Shown: positions 37,022-52,858, numbered from the stretch's first letter. The stretch: DNA of 53,092 bases from Candidatus Pacearchaeota archaeon (GCA_016866995.1 VGKQ01000005.1:1-53092); one strand, 5' to 3'. The notes: a model not told the origin generated them from the letters alone. A program made the numbers and translations.

Positions 37022-37336
37022 TTAAGGAACAAAAGTTTCTAATTTTCCTGTCTCCTTTTTTTGTATTCCTCTAAGAACTATTGGCTCAACCTCTCGTATT
37101 CCTTTTTCAGTTCCATATAAAAAAACATGAAATAAAACCTTGGTTCCAAGATAATATGGAACTCCATATCTTACAGACTGAGCTGTCACATTTTGTTTGT
37201 GAAAATAATGTAATGTTGAATAATTATCACCTCCTCCCTCCCAAACTTTTTCCACACCTTCTTGAGCTTCAATAAACTCAATTAAACTTACTATTCCAAA
37301 ATTAGTCATTGTTTCAGAAAATATTTGTTTTTTCAT
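37022..37336 (-). CDS. Hypothetical protein H (104 aa), orphan
   Basis: ORF downstream of secY; no recognised motif. Confidence 0.55.
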   Translation of the reverse strand: MKKQIFSETMTNFGIVSLIEFIEAQEGVEKVWEGGGDNYSTLHYFHKQNVTAQSVRYGVPYYLGTKVLFHVFLYGTEKGIREVEPIVLRGIQKKETGKLETFVP

Positions 37337-37407
37337 AAATTTTCGTATCCATGGTATTATTTAAGCATTTGTCTTTTACAAAATATATAACAGAAAAAAA
37401 CAGCAGA

Positions 37408-37541
37408 AGAAATTTACCCCATAAATTTCTTCATCTTGAACTTATCAAAGTGAGAGAGGCAGAAATTTACCCCATAAATTTCTTCATCTTGAACTTATCA
37501 AAGTGAGAGAGGCAGAAATTTACCCCATAAATTTCTTCATC
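37408..37541. repeat. Tandem repeat, 53-bp unit x about 2.5, duplicating the secY 3' end
   Basis: agaaatttaccccataaatttcttcatc appears at 37408, 37461 and 37514. Confidence 0.95.
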
Positions 37542-38914
37542 GCAGGATGCATGTCAACTGCGTGCTGTTGTGATATGGAATTATAATACTGATAAATAAT
37601 CATTACTGCAAGCAGGACAGATGTTCCAGAAACCATTGCCCCAAGCGTATCAGCAAAAGCAGCCAGCAATCCTATTGCAGCCCCTCCCATTACTGTCAGA
37701 GGAACAATATATCTGTCAAGCACAGATTCAAGAATTCTTTCATCTTTTCTGAATCCAGGAATCTGCAAGCCAGAACCAATAATATTCTTGGCTTGTGATG
37801 AAGCATCCATGCCAGATGTTTTCATCCAGAAATATGCAAACAAGCACGAAAATGCCATATAAAACAGAATATGAGTTAATCCCTGGATAATATAAATGCT
37901 TCTTAACCCTCCTTTTATTGCTAGTCCTACAATATTTGTATGTGAAAGCCAGAATGCCAAGCCAGAAACAGCCTGCCCCCCTGAAAAGCTTCCAAGCCAT
38001 GTTGCATGCCCTGCCCAGTTTTCAATTAATCCAGCAAAAAGCTGGAGATTTGCAGCAAGTGCAGCAACAAGTATTACTGGGATTACAGAAGCATAAAAAA
38101 AAGCAAGCGGCCACTTTATTCCATATCCTCTTAGCCTGTCAAATGAAAGAGGCACCTCTATTTTAAGAGATTGAGCATACACAACAAATAAAAATATTAT
38201 TGCTGTAACAAATATTGCAGCAATCGCGCCTGCAGCCCCGGTTATATCCTGGTTTATTATACTCTGAATAAGCGAAAATATTTGCCCCGGGCATGATATA
38301 AAATCAGTGCCAGAAAATTTCAACAGGCAGTTTCCTCCCTGTTGTCCTATAAACTGAAACATTTCTGTAAAAATTCTCCACCCCACCCCCGCAACAATAA
38401 ATAATGAGACGCCCTGCCCAAAACCCCATTTCTGTACAACCTCGTCCATAAATACTATTACTAATCCTCCAAGTATCAGCTGAAATATCACAATTCCTGT
38501 ATACCCCGGAGCAGCCTGCAGCCCTTTCATCAATACATAAATTGCTGCCTCAAAGAGAATAAAAAAGAAAACAAGAAGTTTCTGCAATCCCTGAAAGTAT
38601 TTTTTTCCTTCTTCTGTTTTTGTGTCTATATTAAGAATTTTGCTTCCCACAAGCAATTGAAGTATAATTGATGCCATAACAATGGGCCCTATCCCCAGCG
38701 AGATAATTGAACCAAAATCAGTTCCAAGAATTACTGCAAGATACTGAAACCTTTCAAGCGAGTTTTTTTCCAATCCATATAATGAAATATTTGCAAGAAC
38801 AAAAAATGCAAGCAGAACTATTAAAGTCCATTTTAGCTTTACATTGAAGCTAAGCTTTTTTTCTACAGGCCCTCGGACTTCAGGCAGGTTTTTGAGTATC
38901 TCTTTAAATGCCAT
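37520..38914 (-). CDS. secY: Preprotein translocase subunit SecY
   Basis: ILRNLPEVRGPV-like N-terminus (ILKNLPEVRGPVEKKLSF), ten-TM pattern, GSGLQIPGFRKDERILESVLDRYIVPLTVMGG. Confidence 0.95.
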   Translation of the reverse strand: MAFKEILKNLPEVRGPVEKKLSFNVKLKWTLIVLLAFFVLANISLYGLEKNSLERFQYLAVILGTDFGSIISLGIGPIVMASIILQLLVGSKILNIDTKTEEGKKYFQGLQKLLVFFFILFEAAIYVLMKGLQAAPGYTGIVIFQLILGGLVIVFMDEVVQKWGFGQGVSLFIVAGVGWRIFTEMFQFIGQQGGNCLLKFSGTDFISCPGQIFSLIQSIINQDITGAAGAIAAIFVTAIIFLFVVYAQSLKIEVPLSFDRLRGYGIKWPLAFFYASVIPVILVAALAANLQLFAGLIENWAGHATWLGSFSGGQAVSGLAFWLSHTNIVGLAIKGGLRSIYIIQGLTHILFYMAFSCLFAYFWMKTSGMDASSQAKNIIGSGLQIPGFRKDERILESVLDRYIVPLTVMGGAAIGLLAAFADTLGAMVSGTSVLLAVMIIYQYYNSISQQHAVDMHPAMKKFMG

Positions 38915-39029
38915 GTTTCTAAATAGAAAATCTTGTTTTTAAAGGTTATTAGCATTTAAATTATATAAAATAAACCTTCTAACTTAACAAATTAAGAAAG
39001 TTTTTATATTATTATAAACACTTATTACT

Positions 39030-40271
39030 ATGAAAAACTCAGACAAAAAACTTCTTGCTGTTCTGATAATATGCATTCTTCTCCGCCTTGTAATTTTCTC
39101 CTTCCAGACTCCTTTTAACAATGACAAACACTTTTTAGTTGTCAGTTATATTTTTCAGAATAATGCTCTTCCTTCCCCTTTCCAGTTTGAGGAGGCGCAA
39201 CATCCTCCTTTATATTATATTTTTGCCTCTTTTTTTCTTTTTTTTGGCAGTGCAAAAGCAGTGCAGTTTTTTTCTCTCATCCTTTCAATAGGAGCATTAA
39301 TTGTATTTTTTGTTTTAATAAAAAAGCTTGATATACCTCCAAAAAACAAATTATACTGCCTTTTGTTTGCAGGACTGCTTCCACAGATGATATTCTTCGG
39401 CAATTATATCTCAAATGATTCATTGTCAATTTTTCTTGGCTCTTTGATATTTTTTCAGTCTTACATGTTGATAAAGTCTCAGTCAATTATGAATCATGTG
39501 CTTCTTGCAGTATTTCTCGGGCTTGGAATGCTGACAAAAGCAACTTTTATTTTATTTCTTCCTGTTCTTTTTGTTTTGATTATCTTTATAAACTTCAAAA
39601 ATAATCAAAAAATACTTGTTCCATGCCTGATTTTTCTTGTCATCTCCCTGGCTCTGGGAAGCTATAAGTATGTTAACAATGAAATTTTATATAAAAATCC
39701 ATTTATAAATTATCAGGAGATAAATCCCGGGTGGTTTGCGCCCCACAGAGGCACATACTCTGGCTCAAGTTCATTTTATGATATTAATATTATTAAGCTT
39801 ATAGAAAATCCGTATGTTTCTCTTGAGACAAAACACTCCTATCCCTTGATGCTTTACGGAACTTTCTGGTACCAGTATATCAAAGACTCCAATTTCAACG
39901 GCAAATCTGCAATTTTCAGCTGGCTCGGCTCTCTGATTTATATTTTGGCAATAATTCCAACGATAATTATGATTATTGGATTTTTTAGAATTGCACGAAA
40001 TCCCAGCAAAAATATTTTTGAAACATTATGCCTCCTGCTTTTCCTAACAAATTTATTTTTTATTTTTTATGCTGGAATTAAATATGATGACTGGGCATTT
40101 TTTCAGTCAAGATACTTATTCCAGTCATTTTTTTCAATTTTAATATTTCTTAATTCAGGAATTAATTTTATAAAAAACAGCAAAATCAGAAAACTTGTTT
40201 ATATTTCTCTATGCTCTTTATTTTTTCTTTTTGTAATTTATTTTGCATATGGCATCTATAATCTTTTATAA
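39030..40271 (+). CDS. Multi-pass membrane glycosyltransferase-like protein (PMT/ArnT-like)
   Basis: TPFNNDKHFLVVSYIFQNNALPSPFQFEEAQHPPLYYIFASFF; many TM helices. Confidence 0.7.
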   Translation: MKNSDKKLLAVLIICILLRLVIFSFQTPFNNDKHFLVVSYIFQNNALPSPFQFEEAQHPPLYYIFASFFLFFGSAKAVQFFSLILSIGALIVFFVLIKKLDIPPKNKLYCLLFAGLLPQMIFFGNYISNDSLSIFLGSLIFFQSYMLIKSQSIMNHVLLAVFLGLGMLTKATFILFLPVLFVLIIFINFKNNQKILVPCLIFLVISLALGSYKYVNNEILYKNPFINYQEINPGWFAPHRGTYSGSSSFYDINIIKLIENPYVSLETKHSYPLMLYGTFWYQYIKDSNFNGKSAIFSWLGSLIYILAIIPTIIMIIGFFRIARNPSKNIFETLCLLLFLTNLFFIFYAGIKYDDWAFFQSRYLFQSFFSILIFLNSGINFIKNSKIRKLVYISLCSLFFLFVIYFAYGIYNLL

Positions 40272-40334
40272 TTGGCTCTTTAACAATTATAAACTAAATA
40301 ATATTTTTTCAAATTAGTAACATTAATAGTAGAA

Positions 40335-40796
40335 TTACTTTTTCTGTTTCTCTTTAATCTGTTTTTCTTGTTCTTTATCTTCAGATTTGTTTTGCTTATT
40401 TTCTGAAAGAACAATTTTGCCGCCGGCTTTCTCAATTTTCTCCCGGGCTGATTTTGATGCGGCTTTTGCCTTTACAACAACTTTTCTTTTTATCTCTCCT
40501 TCTCCAAGTATTTTGTAATTCTCAAGATTAATTTCTGTTTCTTTCATTTTTTCAATATCAGAAACATTAATTACATTATTCATTTTTCTTTTTGTTTTTC
40601 TGGATGTAAATCCCTGCTGCCCAAAATATGGATAAAGATGTTTTATAACATAGCTTTTTCTCTGGTCTGCCCTCTTTCCAGTTCCAGACATTCCTTTTCC
40701 TCCACGATTTCCACTTCCTTTATGCTTCTTCATAGCCCACCCGCAAGTTCTTGTTCCTCTTGCTCTTGAAAATTTTCTTCTTTTCTTCAGTTTCAT
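40335..40796 (-). CDS. rpl15: Ribosomal protein uL15
   Basis: SRARGTRTCGWAMKKHKGSGNRGGKGMSGTGKRADQRKS. Confidence 0.93.
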   Translation of the reverse strand: MKLKKRRKFSRARGTRTCGWAMKKHKGSGNRGGKGMSGTGKRADQRKSYVIKHLYPYFGQQGFTSRKTKRKMNNVINVSDIEKMKETEINLENYKILGEGEIKRKVVVKAKAASKSAREKIEKAGGKIVLSENKQNKSEDKEQEKQIKEKQKK

Positions 40797-41209
40797 GTTT
40801 TATCTCCTATATTCATAATATACTCTTTTAATTTAGGATGAAATGATGTTGTAAAATATTTTTCAAGCTCATCTGGCTTAACCCATTTTATTTCCTTGAA
40901 TTTCTCCCTAGCTTTCTCTTTTCCTCCAATAACCTCGCACAAATAATAAATTGCCAGAAAATCTTTTTTTTCAGGATATATTTTTGAAAAAACAGCCCCC
41001 AAATTTTCAACTTCCAGTCCTGTCTTTATTTTAATTTCTTTTTTTAATACTTCCTCGGGCTCTTCTCCTGAATTAACATCCCCTCCTGGAAAGCACCAAG
41101 TTAATTTTTTAATATAAGCATCATTTTCTCTTCTTCCAATTAAAATTTTTCTTGTTTTTGTATCAAAAACTATTCCAAGAACAATAACTTTAAAGTTATT
41201 TTCTGCCAT
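40793..41209 (-). CDS. NUDIX hydrolase within the ribosomal operon
   Basis: GGDVNSGEEPEEVLKKEIKIKTGLE (Nudix-box-like, degenerate REXXEE: KEIKIK). Confidence 0.85.
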   Translation of the reverse strand: MAENNFKVIVLGIVFDTKTRKILIGRRENDAYIKKLTWCFPGGDVNSGEEPEEVLKKEIKIKTGLEVENLGAVFSKIYPEKKDFLAIYYLCEVIGGKEKAREKFKEIKWVKPDELEKYFTTSFHPKLKEYIMNIGDKT

Positions 41210-41210
41210 T

Positions 41211-41633
41211 TTACAGCATCCTCCTTATTAACTCGCAAATTTTTTCCTGATTGTCTCCTAAAACTCCGCGAGGATAGTGCAATTTTGAGTTAATTCCGCC
41301 CCGGGGAGGATGAAGAGAGAAAAAAGGCTTTAATTTAAAATCTTCAAGCTTTTTTTCAGTCTTGCTTTCCAGCATCTCGCTGGCAATTTTCTCAGCATCA
41401 ATTTTAATTTTTTTCCCTGATTTTCCTCTCTTCTTTATCAATTCAATTAAAGTTTCCTTGTCAATCTTGCCATAAGCAACAAAATTTCTAACAACTTCAA
41501 GCATCCCAAGATTTTCTGGCTTTTCAAATAAAAGAACACAAGCAAACTTCTTTCTTAATCTCATCCTGAATAAAGTTTCCTGAACTTCTTTTGGTATTTC
41601 AACCATTCCTGATATTCTTATTACAGCTATCAT
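41211..41633 (-). CDS. rpl30: Ribosomal protein uL30
   Basis: MIAVIRISGMVEIPKEVQETLFRMRLRKKFACVLL; C-term FFSLHPPRGG; start corrected to 41633. Confidence 0.92.
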   Translation of the reverse strand: MIAVIRISGMVEIPKEVQETLFRMRLRKKFACVLLFEKPENLGMLEVVRNFVAYGKIDKETLIELIKKRGKSGKKIKIDAEKIASEMLESKTEKKLEDFKLKPFFSLHPPRGGINSKLHYPRGVLGDNQEKICELIRRML

Positions 41634-41986
41634 TTTATGCTCCTGAAACCATGCCCTTCCCCCCAAGGTATTCCTACTCCTCGGGGGTTATAATCTCTTT
41701 TTATTAATTCCTGCCTAAGTTTCTCTGCCTCTTCTCTGCTGTCAAACCTCGCTGTTAAAATTAATCCCCTTGGTATATAATGATATGCCAATAATCTCCC
41801 ATTATGCTGTTTAATTAATTCTGAAACTTCAGAATTCATAGGATTTGCCTCCTCATAGGAATTAAACAATGAAAGTGTTCCTACTGAGCCAACTACCAAG
41901 GTATCATCTATAAATTTCTTTATTCTGTGCATTAATGTGGCTTCTTTTCTTGGTTTTCCTTTTAGTAATACCCTATATTCAATCAT
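41630..41986 (-). CDS. Hypothetical protein G, orphan between S5 and L30
   Basis: MIEYRVLLKGKPRKEATLMHRIKKFIDD...; ATGA overlap at both ends. Confidence 0.7.
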   Translation of the reverse strand: MIEYRVLLKGKPRKEATLMHRIKKFIDDTLVVGSVGTLSLFNSYEEANPMNSEVSELIKQHNGRLLAYHYIPRGLILTARFDSREEAEKLRQELIKRDYNPRGVGIPWGEGHGFRSIK

Positions 41987-42765
41987 CTTGCTTTTTCTCC
42001 TGCTACTTTTATCTCCATTGTTTTTTTCAAAGCAGAAATGCATGCCTTTGCAAGATTTATTGTTGAGCGAGTTTGCCCGAATGTCTTTCCATAAATATCT
42101 TTTATTCCAGCCAATCTTAAAATTTTCTTGCACTCATCTCCTACTGCAAGCCCTGTTCCCTGAGGAGCAGGAATTAATATAATTTCACTGCTTCCGCACT
42201 TTCCCTCAACTTTAAATGGAATAGAATGCATCTCGTGGCAAGAACAATCAAAACTTCCGCATCCTCTTCTTATTTTAAATATATTCAGCTTGGCATTTCT
42301 GGCTGCCTTGCTTCTTGCAGGCAGTGTTTCTTTTGCCTTTCCCAATCCAATTCCTACATGCCCGTTCTCATCTCCGACAACAGCAAGGCATGCGAATGTA
42401 GGGACATTTCCTTCTGCTGTCTTTTTCTGAGTCTGCCTCCATACTCTTCTTTTTCCTCCCCCAAATTTCCCCTTAGCCTGCCCGATTGCAAGCAAATCTG
42501 AATTCAAATTCAATAGAGAATCAGCAATTTCAGGCTCAAGAATTTTGTATTTTTCAAGAATCTCATCAATGTTTTTTATTTTTTTCTCCTTGACAAGCTT
42601 TCCAATTTTTGTTTTAGGAACCCATTTGTCAAGATTTTCTTCTATTTTCTTTTTTTCAACCATTCTAAGCCTTTCTTTCTCCAGCTCTTCTGCAGACTTT
42701 TTCTCAATCTCCTTGATTTCAGGCGCAATTATTTCAACAATATTCTCTTCTTTTTCCTCATTCAT
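41983..42765 (-). CDS. rps5: Ribosomal protein uS5
   Basis: RRVWRQTQKKTAEGNVPTFACLAVVGDENGHVGIGLGKAKE. Confidence 0.95.
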   Translation of the reverse strand: MNEEKEENIVEIIAPEIKEIEKKSAEELEKERLRMVEKKKIEENLDKWVPKTKIGKLVKEKKIKNIDEILEKYKILEPEIADSLLNLNSDLLAIGQAKGKFGGGKRRVWRQTQKKTAEGNVPTFACLAVVGDENGHVGIGLGKAKETLPARSKAARNAKLNIFKIRRGCGSFDCSCHEMHSIPFKVEGKCGSSEIILIPAPQGTGLAVGDECKKILRLAGIKDIYGKTFGQTRSTINLAKACISALKKTMEIKVAGEKAR

Positions 42766-43246
42766 TTTTTATTTTCTCCTTTATTTTTTCAAAATTTATA
42801 TTCTTCTTTAGATGTCTTCCAGATATTCTGTTTTCATCAGGAAATTCAGCATTATTTGGAATATCTATTCCTGCGTCAATTAATCCTTTCAAGAAAGCGT
42901 AAATTTTTGATTTTTTTGTATTTCTAATCAATCCTATATCTAATGCTGCTTTTATTTTTCCCTCTTTATCAATAATTTTTCTTCCGAGAAGCAAGCCAGT
43001 CAAATAGCAGGCTGGCAGAGATTTCAAGCTTCCTGCTGCTTCTTTTGGCCATCCATATTTCAAAAGTATTCTTGATTCAATTCCTCTTGAAACAAAATCC
43101 TGCGCTTCCTTGCTCTTTACATACTGCCCTATAATATACTTGTTTGTTTTCCTGAATATAATTCTTCCTGCTTCTGATTTTAAAAGCCTCATTCTCTTCT
43201 TATAATCTGTTTTTCCTTCTATTCTTCTTCTTTTGTTTATTTTCAT
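42758..43246 (-). CDS. rpl18: Ribosomal protein uL18
   Basis: RRRIEGKTDYKKRMRLLKSEAGRIIFRKTNKYIIGQYV. Confidence 0.93.
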   Translation of the reverse strand: MKINKRRRIEGKTDYKKRMRLLKSEAGRIIFRKTNKYIIGQYVKSKEAQDFVSRGIESRILLKYGWPKEAAGSLKSLPACYLTGLLLGRKIIDKEGKIKAALDIGLIRNTKKSKIYAFLKGLIDAGIDIPNNAEFPDENRISGRHLKKNINFEKIKEKIKNE

Positions 43247-43286
43247 TTTATATTCCTGCAATTTAATTTTTGCACAAATTTTATTT

Positions 43287-43673
43287 TCATTTTATTATCT
43301 CTTTCATATGAGCCTTGCTTTTAAACACTCTTGCTCTTATCTGCTTTCTTGTTTTTTCATATTTTTTCTTGTCAATTTTCTTTTGCAGTTTCAATTGCCT
43401 TGCGTACTCTCTCAATTTTCTTGTAATTTTTACATAATTTTGCTTCCTGCTTCTTATTTTCTTTTTTATTTTCCCAAAACTCCTTATTTTTCTCTTCTCA
43501 ATTTTTCTCTTCCCTTTATTCTCTTTAATGACTATTGCTCCTGAAGAAACAAGATCACGAATATCTTGCTTTGTTATTGCTTCTTTTATTTCATCAATCC
43601 TGACAAACGCTATCTTGTCTGTTCCAACATTAAATGTTCGTGCTGCCATTGATTTTTTATTTTTTAAGTTCAT
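43287..43673 (-). CDS. rpl19e: Ribosomal protein eL19
   Basis: MNLKNKKSMAARTFNVGTDKIAFVRIDEIKEAITKQDIRDLVSSGAI. Confidence 0.92.
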   Translation of the reverse strand: MNLKNKKSMAARTFNVGTDKIAFVRIDEIKEAITKQDIRDLVSSGAIVIKENKGKRKIEKRKIRSFGKIKKKIRSRKQNYVKITRKLREYARQLKLQKKIDKKKYEKTRKQIRARVFKSKAHMKEIIK

Positions 43674-44007
43674 TTTCATTCCAGTCAATCATTTTTCTTT
43701 TTGCATTTTCAATTGTAAATCCTTTTGGATATCTTCCTTCAAGCTTTTTTATGTTTTCCTCCAGCACATTATCCATATCCCAATTGAAAAAATTGCATAT
43801 CATTGCAGCATACCATAATGTATCTCCTATATTTTCTTTTATTCCTGCTTCTTGATTATTGTCATGGGCAAATGTTTTTTTTATGCAGGAAGCAACATCC
43901 CCTGCTTCTCCTGTTATTCCAAGCCCCCATGTAAGTATTTCTTTTTCTCTAGTTTCAAATTTTTTTGCAGTTTTCCTGCATAATTCCTGATATTCTTTCA
44001 AGTTCAT
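43657..44007 (-). CDS. MazG-like nucleotide pyrophosphohydrolase
   Basis: WGLGITGEAGDVASCIKK...KENIGDTLWYAAMICN (EXXE...D pattern). Confidence 0.85.
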   Translation of the reverse strand: MNLKEYQELCRKTAKKFETREKEILTWGLGITGEAGDVASCIKKTFAHDNNQEAGIKENIGDTLWYAAMICNFFNWDMDNVLEENIKKLEGRYPKGFTIENAKRKMIDWNENELKK

Positions 44008-44008
44008 T

Positions 44009-44359
44009 TTATAACCCTCTTCTACTTAACTTTAAATCTTGCTCATCATAATCTCTAGCCACTCCTTTTTCCCCTGGAGAAAAGCTCACAACATCAACAC
44101 CTATAACTCTTCCCTTTTTCATTTTTAAGACATAATCTATTTCAGTTATAGTTTCATTATTATCTCTTCTTAATGTTTGCACATGTTCTTTTCTTCTAAA
44201 CCGGTATCTTCCTATAACTAACTCTTCTGGGCTATTGCCATAGGGATATTTGGAATTGGCTATTCCTGAAATAATTGCTCCAACTACAAATTGTTCTAAT
44301 CTTGCTTCTTTTCTTAAGTCAATAACAGAATTTCTCGTTCTGTCTAATGTTGCTGTCAT
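44009..44359 (-). CDS. Hypothetical protein F, orphan between L32e and MazG
   Basis: Coupled ORF: ATGA with L32e, TAA-N-ATG with MazG. Confidence 0.65.
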   Translation of the reverse strand: MTATLDRTRNSVIDLRKEARLEQFVVGAIISGIANSKYPYGNSPEELVIGRYRFRRKEHVQTLRRDNNETITEIDYVLKMKKGRVIGVDVVSFSPGEKGVARDYDEQDLKLSRRGL

Positions 44360-44697
44360 TTTTTCCCTCGTAAATTTAATATTTTTACTCCAAGCTCAGA
44401 TGCCTTTTTCTCAATTTCAATTCTTTTCTTTTTCCCGATTTTTCTTACAATTACTTCTTCTCCCTTTTCTGCTTGAAGAAGTTCTTTCAAGTTTGAAACC
44501 AATCTTATCTCCTTGCTTGGAGATTTCATCCCAATTTCCGGGCGAGAAGGATATCCCTTTCTTCTTTCTCTCATTTTTGCATGCCTGCCTCTTGGCTTTC
44601 TCCATTTCTGTTTCTTTTTTCTTCCCCATCCCAGCCTGGAATACTTGTCCCAGTTTCTTCTTATGAATTTTTTTCTTTTCTTATTTTTATTTTCCAT
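44356..44697 (-). CDS. rpl32e: Ribosomal protein eL32
   Basis: KKFIRRNWDKYSRLGWGRKKKQKWRKPRGRHAKMRERRKGYPSRPEIG. Confidence 0.93.
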   Translation of the reverse strand: MENKNKKRKKFIRRNWDKYSRLGWGRKKKQKWRKPRGRHAKMRERRKGYPSRPEIGMKSPSKEIRLVSNLKELLQAEKGEEVIVRKIGKKKRIEIEKKASELGVKILNLRGKK

Positions 44698-44699
44698 TT

Positions 44700-45236
44700 T
44701 TAATATTCAGGTTTCTCAATAATATATATGCCGTCCTGAAAAACCCTCCTGTCCCTGTTATTTATCTTGCAGGAATTTTCTATGTTTGCAGCTGTCTGCC
44801 CGGCTGCCTCATTATTTGAGCTTTCAACAATTATATTTTCCTTGTCAACCTTAACTTCTGCTCCTGAAACTATTTTTGCAACTCTTGGCTTCACCTCTCC
44901 TAAAAAATTCTTGATAATAACTTCATGTTTTGACTTATCTACACTAACATTCATTGGAAAATGGACAGCGCATATTCTTAATTTGTATGAAAAATTTTTT
45001 TCAAATCCAAGAATAATATTTTTTATATGTGCTTTTATTGTCTTGATTAATTTTTTTTCCTTCTTTGTTGCTTTTTTTCCTCCGAGTATAATTAAATTGT
45101 CTTCTTTCTTTGCATCAAAGCCAGAATACTCTCTTTCAGCTTCTTTTCCATTTTTCTTGATTTTTATTATTCCATTTGCTATTTCAACTTCAATTCCTGC
45201 AGGAATTTCAATTTTCTCTATAATTTCTTTTCTCAT
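44700..45236 (-). CDS. rpl6: Ribosomal protein uL6
   Basis: EKIEIPAGIEVEIANGIIKIKKNGKEAEREY; CAVHFPMNVSV; FLGEVKPR. Confidence 0.93.
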   Translation of the reverse strand: MRKEIIEKIEIPAGIEVEIANGIIKIKKNGKEAEREYSGFDAKKEDNLIILGGKKATKKEKKLIKTIKAHIKNIILGFEKNFSYKLRICAVHFPMNVSVDKSKHEVIIKNFLGEVKPRVAKIVSGAEVKVDKENIIVESSNNEAAGQTAANIENSCKINNRDRRVFQDGIYIIEKPEY

Positions 45237-45610
45237 TTTTCACCTCCCTGCCTATGCCTATTATAATCCCCATCATCTTTCATGATAAAATCTAACTCTG
45301 CAATCTGTCTATCTACACGTAATAATGTCCCCCTGACTGCTTTTTCTAAAGCTTCAGGGCTCATTCTGTCCAATTGTTCTTCCAGCAGAACTCTTAAATG
45401 CCCAAGTGCCTGGCCATATGCCATATAACCTGCAAATTGCCTATCTGACATTTCTCCTTGGATAGAACCAGAGCGAATACAGCAATCTCCAATAACTCCT
45501 CTTACAGCACGCATATTTCTGTTTTTAATCCCGGGAATTATCAGAGTTTCATATTTATTCACAAACTCTCCCATAACTTCGCCAGGATTCATTAATACTG
45601 CAGTTTCCAT
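45233..45610 (-). CDS. Hypothetical protein E, orphan between S8 and L6
   Basis: METAVLMNPGEVMGEFVNKYETLIIPG...; starts 1 nt after the S8 stop, ends with ATGA overlap into L6. Confidence 0.65.
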   Translation of the reverse strand: METAVLMNPGEVMGEFVNKYETLIIPGIKNRNMRAVRGVIGDCCIRSGSIQGEMSDRQFAGYMAYGQALGHLRVLLEEQLDRMSPEALEKAVRGTLLRVDRQIAELDFIMKDDGDYNRHRQGGEK

Positions 45611-45611
45611 T

Positions 45612-45983
45612 TTAGTAAAAATAAGCAATCAGGCTTCCTCCTATGTTTTTCTTCAAGCATTCTTCATGAGTCAGTAATCCCTTGCTTGTTGTTATAATCA
45701 AAATTCCAAAATCTCTTGCAGGAAGGTATCTTCTGATATATTTTTCAATTTCCTTGCATGAAATATCAAATCTTGGTTTTATTGCCTTGCACTCGTTTAA
45801 GTTAAATTTTATCTCAAGCTCTCTTCCTTTTTTCTTGAACTCAGCAATATATCCGTGTTTTTTTGCAACTTCCAGTACATTCAGAAGAAGATTTGAGTGC
45901 CTTTTTACAATTATCTCACTCTTTCTTGCTCTCTTTGCATTCATTATCTCATTCAATGTGTCTGCTATGATATCGTGGCTCAT
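45612..45983 (-). CDS. rps8: Ribosomal protein uS8
   Basis: DIIADTLNEIMNAKRARKSEI; RDFGILIITTSKGLLTHEEC. Confidence 0.94.
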   Translation of the reverse strand: MSHDIIADTLNEIMNAKRARKSEIIVKRHSNLLLNVLEVAKKHGYIAEFKKKGRELEIKFNLNECKAIKPRFDISCKEIEKYIRRYLPARDFGILIITTSKGLLTHEECLKKNIGGSLIAYFY

Positions 45984-46249
45984 GTTACTACCTGCAACTT
46001 TTCAGGGCCTTTACCCTCCGGCCTTTTAAAGTTTCTTAAACTTTCATTTATTTTTGTCATTTCTGCAACTGAATCATAACCTCCATAAACTTCTGCTGCA
46101 TTTTTGAATCCCTGAATTAAATAATCTAATGCTAATTTATCTCTTTCTCTTACTCCCCTTGGCCCTCTAACTCTCCAAGTGCAAACATCCAATGCACTAT
46201 CAATTCCTTTTCCAAGATATCTCATCATTGTTATTAATTTGTTTATCAT
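45980..46249 (-). CDS. Hypothetical protein D, orphan between S14 and S8
   Basis: MINKLITMMRYLGKGIDSALDVCTWRVRGPRGV...; ATGA overlap into S8. Confidence 0.6.
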   Translation of the reverse strand: MINKLITMMRYLGKGIDSALDVCTWRVRGPRGVRERDKLALDYLIQGFKNAAEVYGGYDSVAEMTKINESLRNFKRPEGKGPEKLQVVT

Positions 46250-46310
46250 TTTTTATGAATACTTTTTATTTTTATTTCCTAAAATCTTATAATTTACTTT
46301 TATCATCATT

Positions 46311-46541
46311 TTAGCTGTATTTCTTAAACCCAATTTCTTCAGCAATGTCCCTGAAGCACTGCCTGCATAAATTTAATCCATAGCTTGAAATATGCGCTCC
46401 AAACCTTCCGCATCTCTCGCATTTTCTCGCAGCCATTCCAAATTTTCTTTCCTTGGGCTTGTTGTGCTTTAGGAACTTCTGCCATATAATTGGCTTGCTT
46501 TTAAGCTGATTCATAAATTTTTTCCAGTCACTTGCTGTCAT
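46311..46541 (-). CDS. rps14: Ribosomal protein uS14 (zinc-binding type)
   Basis: CERCGRFGAHISSYGLNLCRQCFRDIAEEIGFKKYS. Confidence 0.94.
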   Translation of the reverse strand: MTASDWKKFMNQLKSKPIIWQKFLKHNKPKERKFGMAARKCERCGRFGAHISSYGLNLCRQCFRDIAEEIGFKKYS

Positions 46542-47064
46542 CTTCTTCTATTTTTTTCTCCTTTGTTGTTATTTTAGTTTCATAATTTTTTTTCATATAC
46601 TCAATAATTTCCTCTCTTGAAACATCCTGCCTCTTCGGAATTCCTGATTTTTTTATTTTTCTTCTTTTAACTCTTGCTCCTGTCCTTGTAAAATCAATTG
46701 TAACATTCAAACCGAGAATTCCAATATCTCTCTGGTATTCTGTTCCCGGAATTTCAATATACTCGTGAATGCCGAATGAAAAATGATTTTTTTCTATCTG
46801 GCTTTCTTTTATTTCATTGTTTATTGCAAGAAGAAGTTTTTTCAGAAGTTGCTGAAAATTTTTTCTTATTGTTACTTTGCAGCCGACTTCCAATCCCGGC
46901 CTTACATTAAGCGAAGGAATTCTTTTTTTGCTTTTTATCTTTATTGGCTGCCTTGCTGATATTAATTTGAGAAGCCGCACCCCCTTGTCCAATTTATCCC
47001 CGCTTCCTCCAGCACTTAATACAACTTTCTCAATTCTCACTTCTCTCATCTTATTTTGTTTCAT
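46528..47064 (-). CDS. rpl5: Ribosomal protein uL5
   Basis: MREVRIEKVVLSAGGSGDKLDKGVRLL; FSFGIHEYIEIPGTEYQRDIGILGLNV. Confidence 0.94.
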   Translation of the reverse strand: MKQNKMREVRIEKVVLSAGGSGDKLDKGVRLLKLISARQPIKIKSKKRIPSLNVRPGLEVGCKVTIRKNFQQLLKKLLLAINNEIKESQIEKNHFSFGIHEYIEIPGTEYQRDIGILGLNVTIDFTRTGARVKRRKIKKSGIPKRQDVSREEIIEYMKKNYETKITTKEKKIEEDDSK

Positions 47065-47663
47065 TTTACTGCCATTATGTCATTTAGTTTTAAATTTATC
47101 TTTCCTTCTTTAAGCAAAATGCTTGCGTTTTTTCCTTCAATCTTTTCAACTTCTCCTTCTTCGCCCTTATGCTTTCCGTTAATAATTATAATCTTTGCTC
47201 CTTCTTTTAGCTCTATTTTTTTTATTTTTTCTCCCATTACAACCGAGTCGCCTATTTTAAATTTCTCAGCAGAAATAAAATTTCTTCCATCATTCAAATT
47301 AATCTGTGTTTTCTTTCCAGAAAGAATTTTCTTTCCTATTACTTTCAGGATTTTATCAGAATTTCTTGTTTCTTCAAGTCCGAATTTCTTGTTTTTTAAT
47401 ATAACCTTAAACTTCTCATCTCCAAGCTCAAGAACATCAAAAAGAGAAAGCACAAACTTTTCATCTTTTATAATCTTTCCATTTACCTTGGCTTTTTTGT
47501 CATGAATTATTTCCTTTACTTCTTTTTTGCTTTTTGCCTTTTTCATTACATCTCTGATTAATATCAGCACAGGAATTCCATTTTTTCTGCTTTTGATTAA
47601 AAATTTTGTTCCCTTTCTTGGAATTGGCCAGTTCTTAGGCGCTTGGTTTCTTTTCAGGTGCAT
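47061..47663 (-). CDS. rps4e: Ribosomal protein eS4
   Basis: MHLKRNQAPKNWPIPRKGTKFLIK. Confidence 0.93.
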   Translation of the reverse strand: MHLKRNQAPKNWPIPRKGTKFLIKSRKNGIPVLILIRDVMKKAKSKKEVKEIIHDKKAKVNGKIIKDEKFVLSLFDVLELGDEKFKVILKNKKFGLEETRNSDKILKVIGKKILSGKKTQINLNDGRNFISAEKFKIGDSVVMGEKIKKIELKEGAKIIIINGKHKGEEGEVEKIEGKNASILLKEGKINLKLNDIMAVK

Positions 47664-48033
47664 TTTGCTTTTCCTTGTTTTGTTTTATTTTTCTTTCAAC
47701 AAGCTCAATAATTTGTATTTTGCTTGGATGAAAATAGACATTTACCTTTGTCCCGTCTTTCTTCTGCCTTTGTATCCCCTCAATTGCTATTCTCGTTCTC
47801 TTCAAGTCCACTTTGCTTATTTTTCCTTTTTTCTTCCTGAACTTTCCTCTCATTATGATTACGCTGTCTCCTTTTCTTGCTTCAATATTTCTTCCATGTT
47901 TCTTTCTAAGCTCTTTGCTTAAATTTGCTGACAAAAATTTATACTTAATGTGCAGCGGGGCATTTTCAAAATATTTTCTCTGCTTCCGAGTTTGTCTGCT
48001 TGATTTCCATGCTGTGCTGAATTTTTGTTTCAT
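47635..48033 (-). CDS. rpl24: Ribosomal protein uL24
   Basis: MKQKFSTAWKSSRQTRKQRKYFENAPLHIKYKFLSANLSKELRKKHGRN; RKGDSVIIMRGKFRKKKG. Confidence 0.93.
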   Translation of the reverse strand: MKQKFSTAWKSSRQTRKQRKYFENAPLHIKYKFLSANLSKELRKKHGRNIEARKGDSVIIMRGKFRKKKGKISKVDLKRTRIAIEGIQRQKKDGTKVNVYFHPSKIQIIELVERKIKQNKEKQNAPEKKPSA

Positions 48034-48034
48034 T

Positions 48035-48334
48035 TTATGCTGCAAATAACTCTCTTATTGTTGATTTTCTATTTAATTGTGTTAATCTTACTGCAATTTG
48101 TGTCACTTCTTTTGAACTTTTTTGCGATAAAACTTTAGCAAGAAGCAATAATTCCTGATATTTTGGAGGCATGTATGGAAAATTTCTCATATCATATTCT
48201 TTTTTTTCTTCTATTGCTCTTGCAACATCAACGCAATACCACATAAAATTTCTTTGATTATTATAGTCCAGTCTTGCAAATTCTTTCCCCCCTGTTGCAA
48301 CACATTCTCTTATAAGAAAAGGTCTTTCTATCAT
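48035..48334 (-). CDS. Hypothetical protein C, orphan between L14 and L24
   Basis: MIERPFLIRECVATGGKEFARLDYNNQRNFMWYCVDVARAIEE...; 1-nt spacing on both sides. Confidence 0.65.
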   Translation of the reverse strand: MIERPFLIRECVATGGKEFARLDYNNQRNFMWYCVDVARAIEEKKEYDMRNFPYMPPKYQELLLLAKVLSQKSSKEVTQIAVRLTQLNRKSTIRELFAA

Positions 48335-48335
48335 T

Positions 48336-48737
48336 TTAAACTATAAATTGCGCAAGTTTCGCAACCTCCTTCCATCTTTCCTGAACTTCCCTTGGTATTG
48401 CTCCCTTAACCTGTGTTCCTTTTGGATTTCCTTTCTCATCTTTCAATAATACTGCTGCATTATCTGTAAATGCAATTCTCTCCCCAGTCTTTCTCAAAAA
48501 GGGCTTTTTCTGCCTTATTAAAACTGCATCAAAAACCTTTCCTTTCATTTCAGGGTTTCCTGCCCTTACTGAAACTTTAATCCAGTCTCCAACCTTGGCT
48601 GTAATATATCTTCCTTTTCTCGATTTTCCATGCTTCACTCCGACGATTTTTACAATCCTTGCCCCAGAATTGTCAGAAGCAAGTATATGGCTTCCAATAT
48701 TCAATCCCCTTGTCATTCTTGCTGATACTGCTTTCAT
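48336..48737 (-). CDS. rpl14: Ribosomal protein uL14
   Basis: ASDNSGARIVKIVGVKHGKSRKGRYITAKVGDWIKVSVRAGNPEMKGKVFDAVLIRQKKPFLR. Confidence 0.95.
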   Translation of the reverse strand: MKAVSARMTRGLNIGSHILASDNSGARIVKIVGVKHGKSRKGRYITAKVGDWIKVSVRAGNPEMKGKVFDAVLIRQKKPFLRKTGERIAFTDNAAVLLKDEKGNPKGTQVKGAIPREVQERWKEVAKLAQFIV

Positions 48738-49063
48738 TTTTCTTCCTCCTTATTTTGAGATTTTTTTCTTAAAACTTCCACAAGCACAAAATGTATAATC
48801 TTGCTTAATGGACGGCATTCTCTTACTTGCACATAATCTCCAACTTCAACATTTTCCATGCATTTTGAAACTCGAGCATGAAGGCGTGTTTTCTTTTTCA
48901 TATATCTTTCATATTTTTTTATAAATAATGTTCTTTCAAATTCAATGGCAATTCTCTTTGGAAATTTTCTGATTACATTTCCTGCGAAAACTCTGCCTCT
49001 GGCTGCAAGTTTGCCGTGTATCGGGCACTGTTCATCATCACATTTTTCAATTTTTTCTTTCAT
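48734..49063 (-). CDS. rps17: Ribosomal protein uS17
   Basis: GRVFAGNVIRKFPKRIAIEFERTLFIKKYERYMKKKTRLHARV. Confidence 0.93.
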   Translation of the reverse strand: MKEKIEKCDDEQCPIHGKLAARGRVFAGNVIRKFPKRIAIEFERTLFIKKYERYMKKKTRLHARVSKCMENVEVGDYVQVRECRPLSKIIHFVLVEVLRKKSQNKEEEK

Positions 49064-49074
49064 TTTATATTTTT

Positions 49075-49374
49075 TTATTCAGCTATTGAACTTTCTGGAA
49101 ATCCTAATTCAATTAATAAGGGCTTTATTCTCCTTCTATGATCTCCCTGAAGCTCAATTATGCTATTTTTTACTGTTCCTCCACAAGCAAGCTTCTCTTT
49201 AAGAGTTTTTGCTATTTCTTTTATATTAATGCCTTCTCCAATCCCCGTAACAAGCGTAGTTATTTTTCCAAAAGCTCTTTTCACTGTTTCTATTTTTATT
49301 TTCTGCTCGCTTTTTGCAATTTCCTCGCAAACACATGCCTGCTTTGGCAGTCCGCATTTTGGGCATATTTCCAT
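49075..49374 (-). CDS. Translation initiation factor SUI1/eIF1-like
   Basis: Zn-knuckle CPKCGLPKQACVC plus FGKITTLVTGIGEGINIKEIAKTLKEKLACGGTVKNSIIELQGDHR. Confidence 0.93.
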   Translation of the reverse strand: MEICPKCGLPKQACVCEEIAKSEQKIKIETVKRAFGKITTLVTGIGEGINIKEIAKTLKEKLACGGTVKNSIIELQGDHRRRIKPLLIELGFPESSIAE

Positions 49375-49565
49375 TATTTACCCTCCCTGTTTAATTTAAT
49401 ATTATTTGCAGTTAAAATTCTTGCAATTGATTTTTTAATTTCTTTGGCTTTAATCTTGCTGGCTTTGTTTGCAGTCACATTTTTCTTTATTAATTCGAGT
49501 TTAAGCTCTTTCAATTTTTCTTCTCTTTCTTCTTTGCTCAATTTTTTTATATCTTTATACTTCAT
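49374..49565 (-). CDS. rpl29: Ribosomal protein uL29
   Basis: MKYKDIKKLSKEEREEKLKELKLELIKKN...KEIKKSIARILTANN. Confidence 0.88.
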   Translation of the reverse strand: MKYKDIKKLSKEEREEKLKELKLELIKKNVTANKASKIKAKEIKKSIARILTANNIKLNREGK

Positions 49566-50272
49566 CTTTCTTCCTCTGTATTTAACTCAGACTTGTTTTG
49601 CTTCTTTCCTAAAAGAAGTTTCTTTCTTGTTTTCTTTGGCTTTTCTTCTGTAACAGGCATTTTTAATTGTTTTCTCAGTTCATTATTAACTTCTATCTGG
49701 TCATGAATTTTTGCATCAGGAGGCAGTATCGCTACTTTTACTCCAATAACTCCAAGCATTGTTTTTGCTATTGCTTTTGCCCTGTTTACAATCTTTGCTG
49801 TATCACCTGTTTTTTTCAGATATCCAGAAGCAAACCTCCAGGCTTTTGCTCTCTCGCTTGGGAGCTTTCCACTAAGCCTTATTTCAGCTCCTAAAGCCCC
49901 TGCCCTCATTATTTTGTCAAGCATTTTATATGCTATTATCTTGAACTTTAAGCTTCCAAGCTTTTCAAGCATTAAGGCTATGTCATCTGCAATTGTTTGT
50001 GCGTCAAATTCTGGCTTTATTATTTCCTGAATTTCTATATTTGGATTTTCAAGCTTAAATTTTCTCTTTAATATTCTTGTCAGTTCAATAATTTTTTCTC
50101 CCTTTCTTCCTATAACATATCCAGGAGTGTTTGTTGAAATTATTATTTTCTCGCCCACAGGGGTATATTCTATTCCAACCGTGCTTATCTTTCCCTTTCC
50201 CAAATTTCCCTTAATAAATTCTTTTATATTTAATTCATCTTTCTTTAATTGAACAAATTTTTTCTCTTCCAT
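49562..50272 (-). CDS. rps3: Ribosomal protein uS3
   Basis: KKDELNIKEFIKGNLGKGKISTVGIEYTPVGEKIIISTNTPGYVIGRKGEKI; start corrected to 50272. Confidence 0.94.
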   Translation of the reverse strand: MEEKKFVQLKKDELNIKEFIKGNLGKGKISTVGIEYTPVGEKIIISTNTPGYVIGRKGEKIIELTRILKRKFKLENPNIEIQEIIKPEFDAQTIADDIALMLEKLGSLKFKIIAYKMLDKIMRAGALGAEIRLSGKLPSERAKAWRFASGYLKKTGDTAKIVNRAKAIAKTMLGVIGVKVAILPPDAKIHDQIEVNNELRKQLKMPVTEEKPKKTRKKLLLGKKQNKSELNTEEER

Positions 50273-50273
50273 T

Positions 50274-50837
50274 TTAAATTTGAGCCTCCTGCTTATTTTC
50301 TTGTTTTTTCTCACTAACTTTTCTCTCTTTTGCTTCAAGGTAAACATTTGTCCTCTTGAATCTCTCTCTTCCACCTCTTCTGAACGGGCGGGAGGCATCA
50401 TTTGCAATCGCAAGAGTTATTATTGGATTCTCAATTCCATTCACTTGGGAATTTGCCTGCAAGTTTTTCAGCAGATTAATAAATACCTTGCTTGCATTTA
50501 CAGGATATCTTCCACTCATTATTTTTCCATGCCGATGAGGAATTTCTCCCCTCATTTTTAATGGTTTTTTCATTTTCATTATCAATTCTAATTCAGGAAT
50601 CATTTCTTCTGGATTTTTTCCTCTGATTAAGTCGCATATAGCCATTGAATGCTTCTTTGAGATAGGCAAATCTTTTCCATTGACAACAGCTTTTTCTTTT
50701 TTCACAATTTCTTGTTTCTTTTCTTCTTTTTTTGTTTTCTCTTCTGATTTTATCTCTGATTTTTCTTCAACTTTTGGAGTTTCTTTGTTAATTGGCTCTT
50801 CAATTTTTTTCTCTTCAGTTTTTGCTTCTTTTTTCAT
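50274..50837 (-). CDS. rpl22: Ribosomal protein uL22 with Lys/Glu-rich N-terminal extension
   Basis: LPISKKHSMAICDLIRGKNPEEM; EIPHRHGKIMSGRYPVNASKVFINLL. Confidence 0.92.
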   Translation of the reverse strand: MKKEAKTEEKKIEEPINKETPKVEEKSEIKSEEKTKKEEKKQEIVKKEKAVVNGKDLPISKKHSMAICDLIRGKNPEEMIPELELIMKMKKPLKMRGEIPHRHGKIMSGRYPVNASKVFINLLKNLQANSQVNGIENPIITLAIANDASRPFRRGGRERFKRTNVYLEAKERKVSEKKQENKQEAQI

Positions 50838-50838
50838 T

Positions 50839-51228
50839 TTATTTCACAGACAAAGCTGCAGACGATTTAGTTGCGCCTATTCCTGGAGCTCCGTGCTCAA
50901 CTTTCTTTCTTGTCACGGAAAATTCACCTAATCTATGCCCCAGCATTTCTGGAATAATTTTTATTGAGACAAATTCTTTTCCATTATGGATTCCAATTGT
51001 ATAATTTATCATTCCAGGAACAATTACAAGATTTCTCAGGTGTGTTTTTATCGGCTTGCTTTTCCCCGAATTTTTCCTGCACTTTTCCACAAATTTTTCA
51101 ATAACATCAAAATGCCGAAGAACAAATCTTCTTGAATCAGCCCCAACTAATCTTGCAAATTCTCTTGTATCCAAAGCTTTTAACTCGCTAATATTTTTCC
51201 CGCGATATTTAAATTCTCGAGCTGCCAT
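50839..51228 (-). CDS. rps19: Ribosomal protein uS19
   Basis: IKTHLRNLVIVPGMINYTIGIHNGKEFVSIKIIPEMLGHRLGEFSVTRKKVEHGAPGIGAT. Confidence 0.95.
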   Translation of the reverse strand: MAAREFKYRGKNISELKALDTREFARLVGADSRRFVLRHFDVIEKFVEKCRKNSGKSKPIKTHLRNLVIVPGMINYTIGIHNGKEFVSIKIIPEMLGHRLGEFSVTRKKVEHGAPGIGATKSSAALSVK

Positions 51229-51229
51229 T

Positions 51230-51541
51230 TTATGCTGCTACTCCAAAAGGTAATTTAATATCTGAATAACTTTTCACTTCTAAAATTCCATAACCATATT
51301 CTTCTCCAATTTCACTTGCATGAGCTATTAAATGAGAAACTCTGCTTAAATGTGTGCCCCCAACAATCCAAAAATTATGAGTATCCCCCCTTCCTCCTTT
51401 TCCTATTGGATTTAATGAAATCATTCTTACTGCATAAACTGTTCCTGGCATTTCCTCTAATTTCAAAACAATGTCCCTGCTTAAACAACACGAATTTCTC
51501 ATGCTAAATTCTAATCTTAATTTTTTTCTTCTAATTAACAT
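51230..51541 (-). CDS. Hypothetical protein B, orphan between L2 and S19
   Basis: MLIRRKKLRLEFSMRNSCCLSRDIVLKLEEMPGTVYAV...; start taken at 51541, 1 nt after the L2 stop. Confidence 0.65.
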   Translation of the reverse strand: MLIRRKKLRLEFSMRNSCCLSRDIVLKLEEMPGTVYAVRMISLNPIGKGGRGDTHNFWIVGGTHLSRVSHLIAHASEIGEEYGYGILEVKSYSDIKLPFGVAA

Positions 51542-51542
51542 T

Positions 51543-52235
51543 TTATTTCTTCCTCCTTCCTGTTCTTTTTGGATGAAGATGTCCAACTTTAGCTCCGGGG
51601 GGAGCATTATTCTTTGCAATCTTGCTTTTTATTCTTTTTCCTCTTCCAGAGCCAAAAGGATGGTCAACTACATTCATTTTTACAGCAGAAGTTCTTGGCC
51701 ATAACTTGTTTTTTGCCTTCATCATATGCCATTTTTTCCCTGCTTTTATTATGGGTTTCTCAAGCCTTCCCTGTCCTGCAACAATTCCAATTGTAGCCCT
51801 GCATTTCTCATCAAACCATATTTCCTTTTTGCTTGGCATCATTACTGCAACTCTTCCAGGCATTTTCTTAGTAATTGTAGCAGACAATCCAGAAGCTCTT
51901 ACTAATTTTCCGCCGTCATTTAATTTTGCTTCAATATTATATATGCTTGTTCCTGGAGCAATATCTTTCAATTGCATAATGTTTCCGTTTTCTTGCTTTC
52001 CTGTTTCAATCTCCTGCCCCACAATTGCCCCGTCAAATGCAGGATTATAAAAAATCTTGTTTCCAATTTGAATTTTTGCAAGAGGAGCAGAATGCGCTGG
52101 CGAGTTTATAAGCTCAAGAATTTTTCCTTTTCCTTCTATAATAGGATATCCAATTCTAAATTTGTAAGCCTGCTTTCTGACTCTGTAAGTCAATGAGCCA
52201 TGCCCTCTTGCCTGTTGTATTATTCTTTTTCCCAT
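51543..52235 (-). CDS. rpl2: Ribosomal protein uL2
   Basis: RARGHGSLTYRVRKQAYKFRIGYP; MNVVDHPFGSGRGKR. Confidence 0.96.
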   Translation of the reverse strand: MGKRIIQQARGHGSLTYRVRKQAYKFRIGYPIIEGKGKILELINSPAHSAPLAKIQIGNKIFYNPAFDGAIVGQEIETGKQENGNIMQLKDIAPGTSIYNIEAKLNDGGKLVRASGLSATITKKMPGRVAVMMPSKKEIWFDEKCRATIGIVAGQGRLEKPIIKAGKKWHMMKAKNKLWPRTSAVKMNVVDHPFGSGRGKRIKSKIAKNNAPPGAKVGHLHPKRTGRRKK

Positions 52236-52236
52236 T

Positions 52237-52614
52237 TTATGCCACCGATTTCCTCCCCGCTTTTATTAATTTTCTCTCATAATCTATGAATGTTTTAGTC
52301 ATTTCCTCTCTCCTAATATCAATACAACCCGCTCTTTCAATATCAACAACAGTCAAATATCCTTCTTTTGTTGGAGCAAGATTTTTTAGAACAGTATTTA
52401 ATATCATAATCCTATTTCCATCTAATGGATTTCTATAAGCAAAACTGATTAGGTCTGGCTGTCCTCTTTGGGGCAGTACTCCATCGTGCACCGAGACAAG
52501 CCTAAATACAGGAGTGTCTAAAACTACTACATCATCCTTAACTAAACTAGCAATATCTTCGTTACTTCTTACTGGTTTAAATTCAACTCTCTCTAAATTT
52601 TGAAATATCTTCAT
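52237..52614 (-). CDS. Hypothetical protein A, orphan between L23 and L2
   Basis: MKIFQNLERVEFKPVRSNEDIASLVKDDVVVLDTPVFRLVSVHDG...; 1-nt spacing on both sides. Confidence 0.65.
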   Translation of the reverse strand: MKIFQNLERVEFKPVRSNEDIASLVKDDVVVLDTPVFRLVSVHDGVLPQRGQPDLISFAYRNPLDGNRIMILNTVLKNLAPTKEGYLTVVDIERAGCIDIRREEMTKTFIDYERKLIKAGRKSVA

Positions 52615-52615
52615 C

Positions 52616-52858
52616 TTATATCATCCCAAGTTTAGTTGCAACATCAATTGCAGGATTTTTCTTATCCAGTTTAATATAAACATATTTTTCGTTTTTTCTT
52701 ATCAAAGTTCGAATTTTTTCAACATTAACTTTGAAAGTTTCCTCAAATTCTTTTTTTATCTCAGATTTTCTTGCCTTTCTCTCAACTCTGAAAATTAGAG
52801 TATTCTCTATTTCAATTAATTTCACTGCTTTCTCTGACGTGACTGGTTTTAGTATCAT
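52616..52858 (-). CDS. rpl23: Ribosomal protein uL23
   Basis: ILKPVTSEKAVKLIEIENTLIFRVERKARKSEIKKEFEETFKVNVEKIRTLI. Confidence 0.94.
   Translation of the reverse strand: MILKPVTSEKAVKLIEIENTLIFRVERKARKSEIKKEFEETFKVNVEKIRTLIRKNEKYVYIKLDKKNPAIDVATKLGMI

Follow-up and report, generated by a model that had tools for sequence, protein, structure and literature searches.

Orphan genes in the S10-spc operon of a Pacearchaeota archaeon

We analyzed a stretch of 53,092 nucleotides from a Candidatus Pacearchaeota archaeon (GCA_016866995.1, VGKQ01000005.1:1-53092; below, the window), in which seven small orphan genes, A to G, are interleaved with the ribosomal-protein (r-protein) genes of the S10-spc operon. 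The window is the whole of contig C5 of a draft genome of 70 contigs and 1.06 Mb, coded G000 here; its relatives carry other G numbers. From L23 (52858) to L15 (40335), on the minus strand, the gene order of the canonical archaeal S10-spc operon is unbroken, and the window differs from the canonical arrangement in that orphans occupy 7 of 22 junctions (Table 1). The open reading frames (ORFs) of A to G, all on the minus strand, and the gene order around them are as a first-pass annotation of the sequence had described. L23 lies near the end of the contig, with the contig boundary just upstream of it, and the upstream part of the operon opens contig C1 of the same genome, where an eighth orphan sits between L3 and L4 (both confirmed by Pfam). 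At the other end, L15 and SecY are parted by an opposite-strand gene for a PMT_2-like membrane glycosyltransferase (39030-40271). An Rfam scan of the window gave no match.

Table 1. Operon, orphans and related inserts; positions refer to the window unless another sequence is named. aa, amino acids; K/(K+R), Lys as a share of Lys plus Arg.
Feature	Position	Strand	Junction or setting	Remarks
Host operon	40335..52858	-	L23-L2-S19-L22-S3-L29-SUI1-S17-L14-L24-S4e-L5-S14-S8-L6-L32e-L19e-L18-S5-L30-L15	
Orphan A, 125 aa	52237..52614	-	L23/L2	beta-rich
Orphan B, 103 aa	51230..51541	-	L2/S19	start at 51541
Orphan C, 99 aa	48035..48334	-	L14/L24	helix-rich (propensity index)
Orphan D, 89 aa	45980..46249	-	S14/S8	helix-rich (propensity index)
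Orphan E, 125 aa	45233..45610	-	S8/L6	start at 45610; Pacearchaeota family, predicted four-helix bundle
Orphan F, 116 aa	44009..44359	-	L32e/MazG	weak match to S19/L22 insert of G194
MazG-type nucleotide pyrophosphohydrolase	43657..44007	-		Pfam 7.8e-10, 39.3 bits (cut-off 22); K/(K+R) 0.79
Orphan G, 118 aa	41630..41986	-	S5/L30	
NUDIX hydrolase	40793..41209	-		Pfam 9.7e-16, 58.4 bits (cut-off 21.1); K/(K+R) 0.85
Orphan H, 104 aa	37022..37336	-	after SecY, 183 nt gap	uncoupled; K/(K+R) 0.75
Eighth orphan, 104 aa, Arg-rich	L181:837-1151, contig C1		L3/L4	-4 overlaps on both sides
67-aa Cys-containing Arg-rich orphan	L192:5319-5522 / L226		rpoB/rpoA of G000	different orphans at this junction in other insert-rich relatives
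Zinc-ribbon-like insert	L110, L111, L115, L116, L118, L122-L124, L132, L136		L30/L15	

A to G are Arg-rich and distinct from the other inserted genes

A to G share a Lys-poor, Arg-rich composition, with K/(K+R) of 0.29-0.50 compared to 0.71 in r-proteins; among 229 genes of at least 200 aa in the same genome the median was 0.74 and the 5th percentile 0.44. When A to H were compared with these longer genes, K/(K+R) differed (p=2e-4) whereas GC content did not (p=0.36), and the orphans' Arg codons matched those of the host (AGA 0.70 vs 0.71, AGG 0.23 vs 0.19). Thus, the shift from Lys to Arg is a property of the proteins and not a foreign codon signature, and a foreign origin on grounds of codon usage was rejected. 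A to D, F and G are basic (isoelectric point, pI, 8.8-9.6), while E is acidic (pI 5.7). At the dinucleotide composition of this DNA, a chance stop-free run of at least 89 codons has a probability of about 0.001 per run, so that chance would not be expected to produce ORFs of about 100 aa. As judged from their sequences, A to G appear to be real protein-coding genes and not chance ORFs.

Searches of A to H against Pfam, PHROGs, NCBIfam and PADLOC gave nothing beyond chance level, and no curated ribosomal-protein or assembly-factor family was matched. Pairwise comparison of A to H for common ancestry revealed no convincing similarity among the matches listed. E could be folded confidently; the single-sequence model of A was poor (pLDDT 40) and was not used.

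The first-pass annotation had counted the MazG and NUDIX genes among the insertions and H among the orphans. The two hydrolase genes are real, as their Pfam matches demonstrate, but all three genes are of a different, native-like class. H has a native-like composition and, lying uncoupled beyond SecY, is not of the class that A to G form. MazG recurs in the S10-spc operon of relatives, at the same L32e/L19e junction in G158 and at L30/L15 in G092, and NUDIX recurs at L30/L15 in G186, G142 and G100. On account of their native-like composition and their recurrence in the operon of other genera, MazG and NUDIX do not belong with A to G and are ordinary conserved operon neighbors.

Inserts fit exactly into stop/start junctions

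Thirteen of the 14 junctions between A to G and native genes have an offset of exactly +1 (TAA-N-ATG) or -4 (ATGA), the exception being S14/D with 61 nt, which bears out the earlier description of nearly uniform junctions. The same was seen on a larger scale in 96 operons, our own and those of 95 relatives, in which the ORFs between r-protein genes were listed. In this set, +1 or -4 offsets were found at 255 of 376 junctions that involve an insert (68%) and at 747 of 1612 native junctions (46%; p=4e-14), and TAAAATG was the predominant form in both. The tight fit of the inserts is thus not due to chance, and is even commoner than the fit between native genes.

Furthermore, Shine-Dalgarno-like matches of at least four bases preceded the next start at 64% of insert-to-native junctions, compared to 26% at control positions inside inserts; for native junctions the figures were 48% and 14%, all percentages being approximate since starts were chosen mechanically. 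As an example, the 3' end of E holds GGAGGTGA ahead of L6. Together with the exact offsets, the Shine-Dalgarno-like sequences at insert ends show that the inserts preserve the signals for translational coupling, in line with the proposal made at first reading that every insertion keeps coupling intact.

Inserts recur across the family and turn over rapidly

When the r-protein operons of 35 relatives, drawn from the same family and order, were searched with A to H by tblastn, no homologue was returned; the native gene order was intact in these operons. Many relatives, none of them from the same genus among those sampled, nevertheless carry inserts of their own, different from A to G. When ORFs of at least 60 aa between L23 and L15 were counted, the highest numbers within the family were found in G045 (13), G189 and G157 (11 each) and G047 (10); about one third of the 96 operons had no insert at all, and the other families of the order, represented by 15 genomes, had few. 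Of 118 inserts taken from 16 genomes, at most 10 matched Pfam and at most 6 matched PHROGs, and 172 insert ORFs were singletons by phmmer. As in the window, inserts had a lower K/(K+R) than the r-proteins encoded with them in 30 of 32 genomes.

Turnover is rapid even between congeners. The r-proteins of G146 and G147 are 86% identical, while only one of the three inserts in each is common to both, with 40% identity. For this common insert, the synonymous (dS) and nonsynonymous (dN) rates were 1.35 and 0.62, giving a dN/dS of about 0.46 compared to 0.02-0.13 in r-proteins; a second pair gave a dN of 0.71 and a dS of 0.75. With dS near saturation these ratios are rough, and they point to weak or no constraint on the inserts. 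Insert-rich genomes are scattered on the r-protein tree. Genome size was rejected as the sole driver of insert number, as the correlation was only modest (Spearman 0.36, p=0.003).

Other departures from the canonical operon were also observed among the relatives. A stable insert, unlike the variable ones, is a conserved protein of about 60 aa, acidic and zinc-ribbon-like (WECECGxIEYG..PPEEC), at L30/L15 in ten genomes (Table 1). In outgroup families (L051, L057, L060, L063) the gene for RNase P p29, an ordinary archaeal gene, is a recurrent insert between SUI1 and S17, a place that it does not occupy in the window. In some g37 genomes (L137 G045, L139 G047, L145 G039) the S10-spc operon is rearranged, with S3 and L29 moved behind S5, and has many inserts.

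Protein families among the inserts

Relatives of E were pointed out by a concatenated query of A to H in order-level genomes, an insensitive search that missed B, C and H in their own genome; the same query against genome contigs found nothing. The homologues of E are 21-31% identical with invariant F, Y, I, P, R, A, L and Y residues, and E itself matches the family profile P..M..FvNkYe..I.P...G....R.... Of 180 genomes of the archaeal family, 8 have a member, and among 280 genomes sampled across the class members were confined to that family; the named records of homologues are metagenome-assembled genomes of Pacearchaeota or Nanoarchaeota, one of them labelled 'bacterium'. They occupy S8/L6 in G000, G145 and G157, S14/S8 in G063 (L174), a site beside Alba in G184 and G189, and other sites in G052 and G190. 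The three genomes with E at S8/L6 are distant lineages, and G003 and G158, near relatives of two of them, lack E there. Among A to G, E alone recurs between the same r-protein genes, and its other carriers there are limited to two genera within the archaeal family of G000. Structure prediction from five divergent sequences gave a four-helix bundle (pLDDT 89, pTM 0.83), for which Foldseek searches at E<=1e-3 matched neither PDB entries nor viral structures; run against PDB, the E profile gave no more than weak stray matches. By profile and model, E is a member of a real protein family with a predicted four-helix bundle.

A second, beta-type family carries the motifs 'L..L..GDVI' at the N-terminus and 'Y..R..IL..AGL' at the C-terminus, and its 11 members, from several genera, are found at the L23/L2, L2/S19 and S5/S3 junctions. 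Its profile (E<=0.001) had no match in G000, where F scored E=0.54 and A was not listed. By eye, A and F resemble the family, A through a weak likeness to 'GDVI...AGL' at the L23/L2 junction that the family occupies in relatives, but neither was assigned to it.

Transcription and translation operons are preferred sites

Outside the operon, in about 400 kb of the same genome, Arg-rich small genes were found at 5 of 128 junctions between tightly linked genes, one of them L3/L4 of the same operon, compared to 7 of 22 junctions in the window's operon (p=3e-4). In G000 and insert-rich relatives, such genes are also present between rpoB and rpoA (G000, G092, G145, G157, G047, G188), around S12/S7 of the str operon (G145, G157, G188) and at S11/RpoD (G000, G157); gene names at these rpo, str and alpha sites were assigned by reading the sequences, with a Pfam check for rpoB and rpoA of G000. 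Transcription and translation operons are the preferred sites of the inserts.

Three further features were seen in these searches. The RNA polymerase (RNAP) A subunit of G000 (L192:1895-5317) is a single protein of 1140 aa with Rpb1 domains 1 to 5, so that A' and A'', which are split in many archaea, appear to be fused. In G047, rpoB is split within the region of Rpb2 domain 6 into ORFs of 687 and 354 aa with a 4-nt overlap (L229:2509-5626). Away from the translation operons, G000 has a run of four small Arg-rich orphans with -4 overlaps, followed by a longer coupled ORF (L190:10695-12077).

Discussion

We propose, with about an even chance of being right, that A to G belong to a fast-turnover, lineage-specific repertoire of small Arg-rich accessory proteins carried on the strongest operons of one Pacearchaeota family. 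In such a scheme, genes without promoters would settle in stop/start junctions of the S10-spc, rpoB-rpoA, str and alpha operons and move as promoterless units. Each would be translated by termination-reinitiation at TAAAATG or ATGA, the end of the preceding gene often containing a Shine-Dalgarno-like sequence, and the native gene that follows would receive its ribosomes from the insert likewise. The exact fit of the inserts would then arise because only those that leave the following r-protein gene coupled survive. They would be expressed strongly and constitutively with no need of their own promoter, a benefit that may be the reason for their location. Over time they would diverge quickly and be lost, and members of a family would turn up at other junctions; the distribution of inserts across genomes suggests such gain, loss and shift.

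Several results weigh against this proposal. No matched pair of an empty and a filled junction is shown at the nucleotide level. The abundance of Arg-rich inserts per junction here, with an odds ratio of about 11 over other operons of the genome, would also fit a function linked to the ribosome. In 15 whole genomes the beta-type profile, which was built from r-operon members so that the search is biased towards them, matched in the r-operon only, bar one weak partial match in G104, which suggests a position-specific role. Moreover, the helix-versus-strand propensity of 168 inserts depended on the junction (0 of 5000 permutations, p=2e-4), also within genomes, and the association of fold class with junction persisted when recognizable homologues were collapsed (median p=0.017). 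Helical inserts favored S14/S8, S8/L6, S4e/L5 and L6/L32e, beta inserts L23/L2 and L2/S19. Junction-dependent fold class and confinement of the beta-type family together suggest position-specific lineages of inserts. Hidden homology between inserts at the same junction was dropped as an explanation, for although fold class depends on junction, the pairwise test at the same junction was not significant (p=0.18).

These associations with position would be accounted for if the inserts were ribosome- or RNAP-associated lineage-specific proteins, such as assembly factors, chaperones or extra subunits, that are bound to their junctions, inherited vertically and diverge fast. The enrichment of inserts in the translation operon, their presence in RNAP, str and alpha operons and the basic character of A to D, F and G point the same way. 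Such proteins would not be expected to be absent from one third of the operons or to differ so widely between sister genomes; moreover, E is acidic and has homologues outside the operon adjoining Alba, and the null result for hidden homology also speaks against junction-bound descent. We regard this alternative as unlikely, though deserving serious attention. As the reason for the concentration of inserts, we favor expression hitch-hiking, which we hold to be evenly balanced, over proteins acting on the machines that the operons encode, which seems improbable to us. A bolder variant has in our view only a small probability. In it, the whole archaeal family would produce a hypervariable set of small proteins in stoichiometry with its ribosome and RNAP, each junction having its own fast-evolving lineage (helical after S14 and after S8, beta-barrel-like around L2), and diversifying selection would act on these proteins as clade-specific accessory or immunity factors of the two machines.

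Patchy spread, the appearance of one family at several sites, the distinct amino-acid composition and the kinship of MazG and NUDIX with types common in phages could indicate recent cargo of archaeal mobile elements or viruses, spread by an unknown kind of recombination. However, IMG/VR scans returned no relatives of E or of A to D, phage genomes held none of A to G, PHROGs matches were few, GC content and Arg codon usage equal those of the host, and the E model has no viral structure match. Viral origin is therefore without support, and we give the cargo explanation only a slim chance. Equally slim is the chance that the inserts are mostly de novo or near-neutral ORFs in the slack between genes, tolerated as long as coupling is undisturbed: very fast divergence (with dN approaching dS in one pair) and the many phmmer singletons would agree with it, but E and the beta-type family are recognizable across genera, E yields a confident fold from divergent sequences, the common insert of G146 and G147 has a dN/dS well below one, ORFs of this length are not expected by chance and the shift in composition is consistent across genomes. 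That the arrangement is an artefact of assembly, binning or gene calling, to which a contig from a fragmented draft might give rise, is practically negligible, as tens of genomes of the family, independent of one another, show the same architecture with exact in-frame coupling.

The first-pass annotation had offered two readings. Cassette-like invasion of junctions stands in outline, since inserts differ between congeners, families occupy different junctions, coupling is preserved and similar genes occur in RNAP, str and alpha operons; because the searches turned up neither a mechanism of insertion nor a viral relative (junction repeats were not searched), 'cassette' is descriptive only. For the other, that the orphans are lineage-specific ribosome-associated or assembly factors, the data speak on both sides: the enrichment in this operon and the confinement of the beta-type family are in its favor, the very fast turnover and the operons without inserts are against it.

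Few gene arrangements across life are as conserved as the S10-spc operon, which is much used as a phylogenetic anchor. Junctions in which unrelated small genes appear to come and go repeatedly, with order and coupling kept, amount to a natural experiment on the entry of new genes into essential operons, and provide a defined set of proteins for tests of ribosome and RNAP association in uncultivated DPANN archaea. Should the inserts bind the ribosome, the composition of ribosomes in these cells would vary far more than is assumed; should they not, core operons would act as landing sites where new genes can enter.

Neither orphan genes nor the occasional foreign gene in an operon would be new in kind. 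In the literature that we searched, mostly outside subscription journals, we found no description of a dense, family-wide interleaving with hypervariable Arg-rich genes that preserves coupling, and this aspect appears to be new. Lineage-specific hypothetical proteins of archaea, including DPANN, have been surveyed (PMC9258230); as far as the parts of that survey consulted go, A to G resemble its small orphan proteins in being restricted to one lineage, and differ in that they are interleaved in a core ribosomal operon, vary between congeners and are Arg-rich. A survey of Asgard archaea (PMC10833476) reports occasional extra ORFs in r-protein clusters; in the portion consulted, most 'hypothetical proteins' of these clusters are misannotated r-proteins or else errors of annotation, and dense family-wide interleaving is not mentioned.

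Phage 'morons', or intergenic passenger genes, are accessory genes between conserved genes, usually with a promoter and terminator of their own. The inserts described here resemble them in being accessory genes slotted between conserved genes and variable between close relatives, but differ in that they appear to rely on coupling and sit in a cellular core operon.

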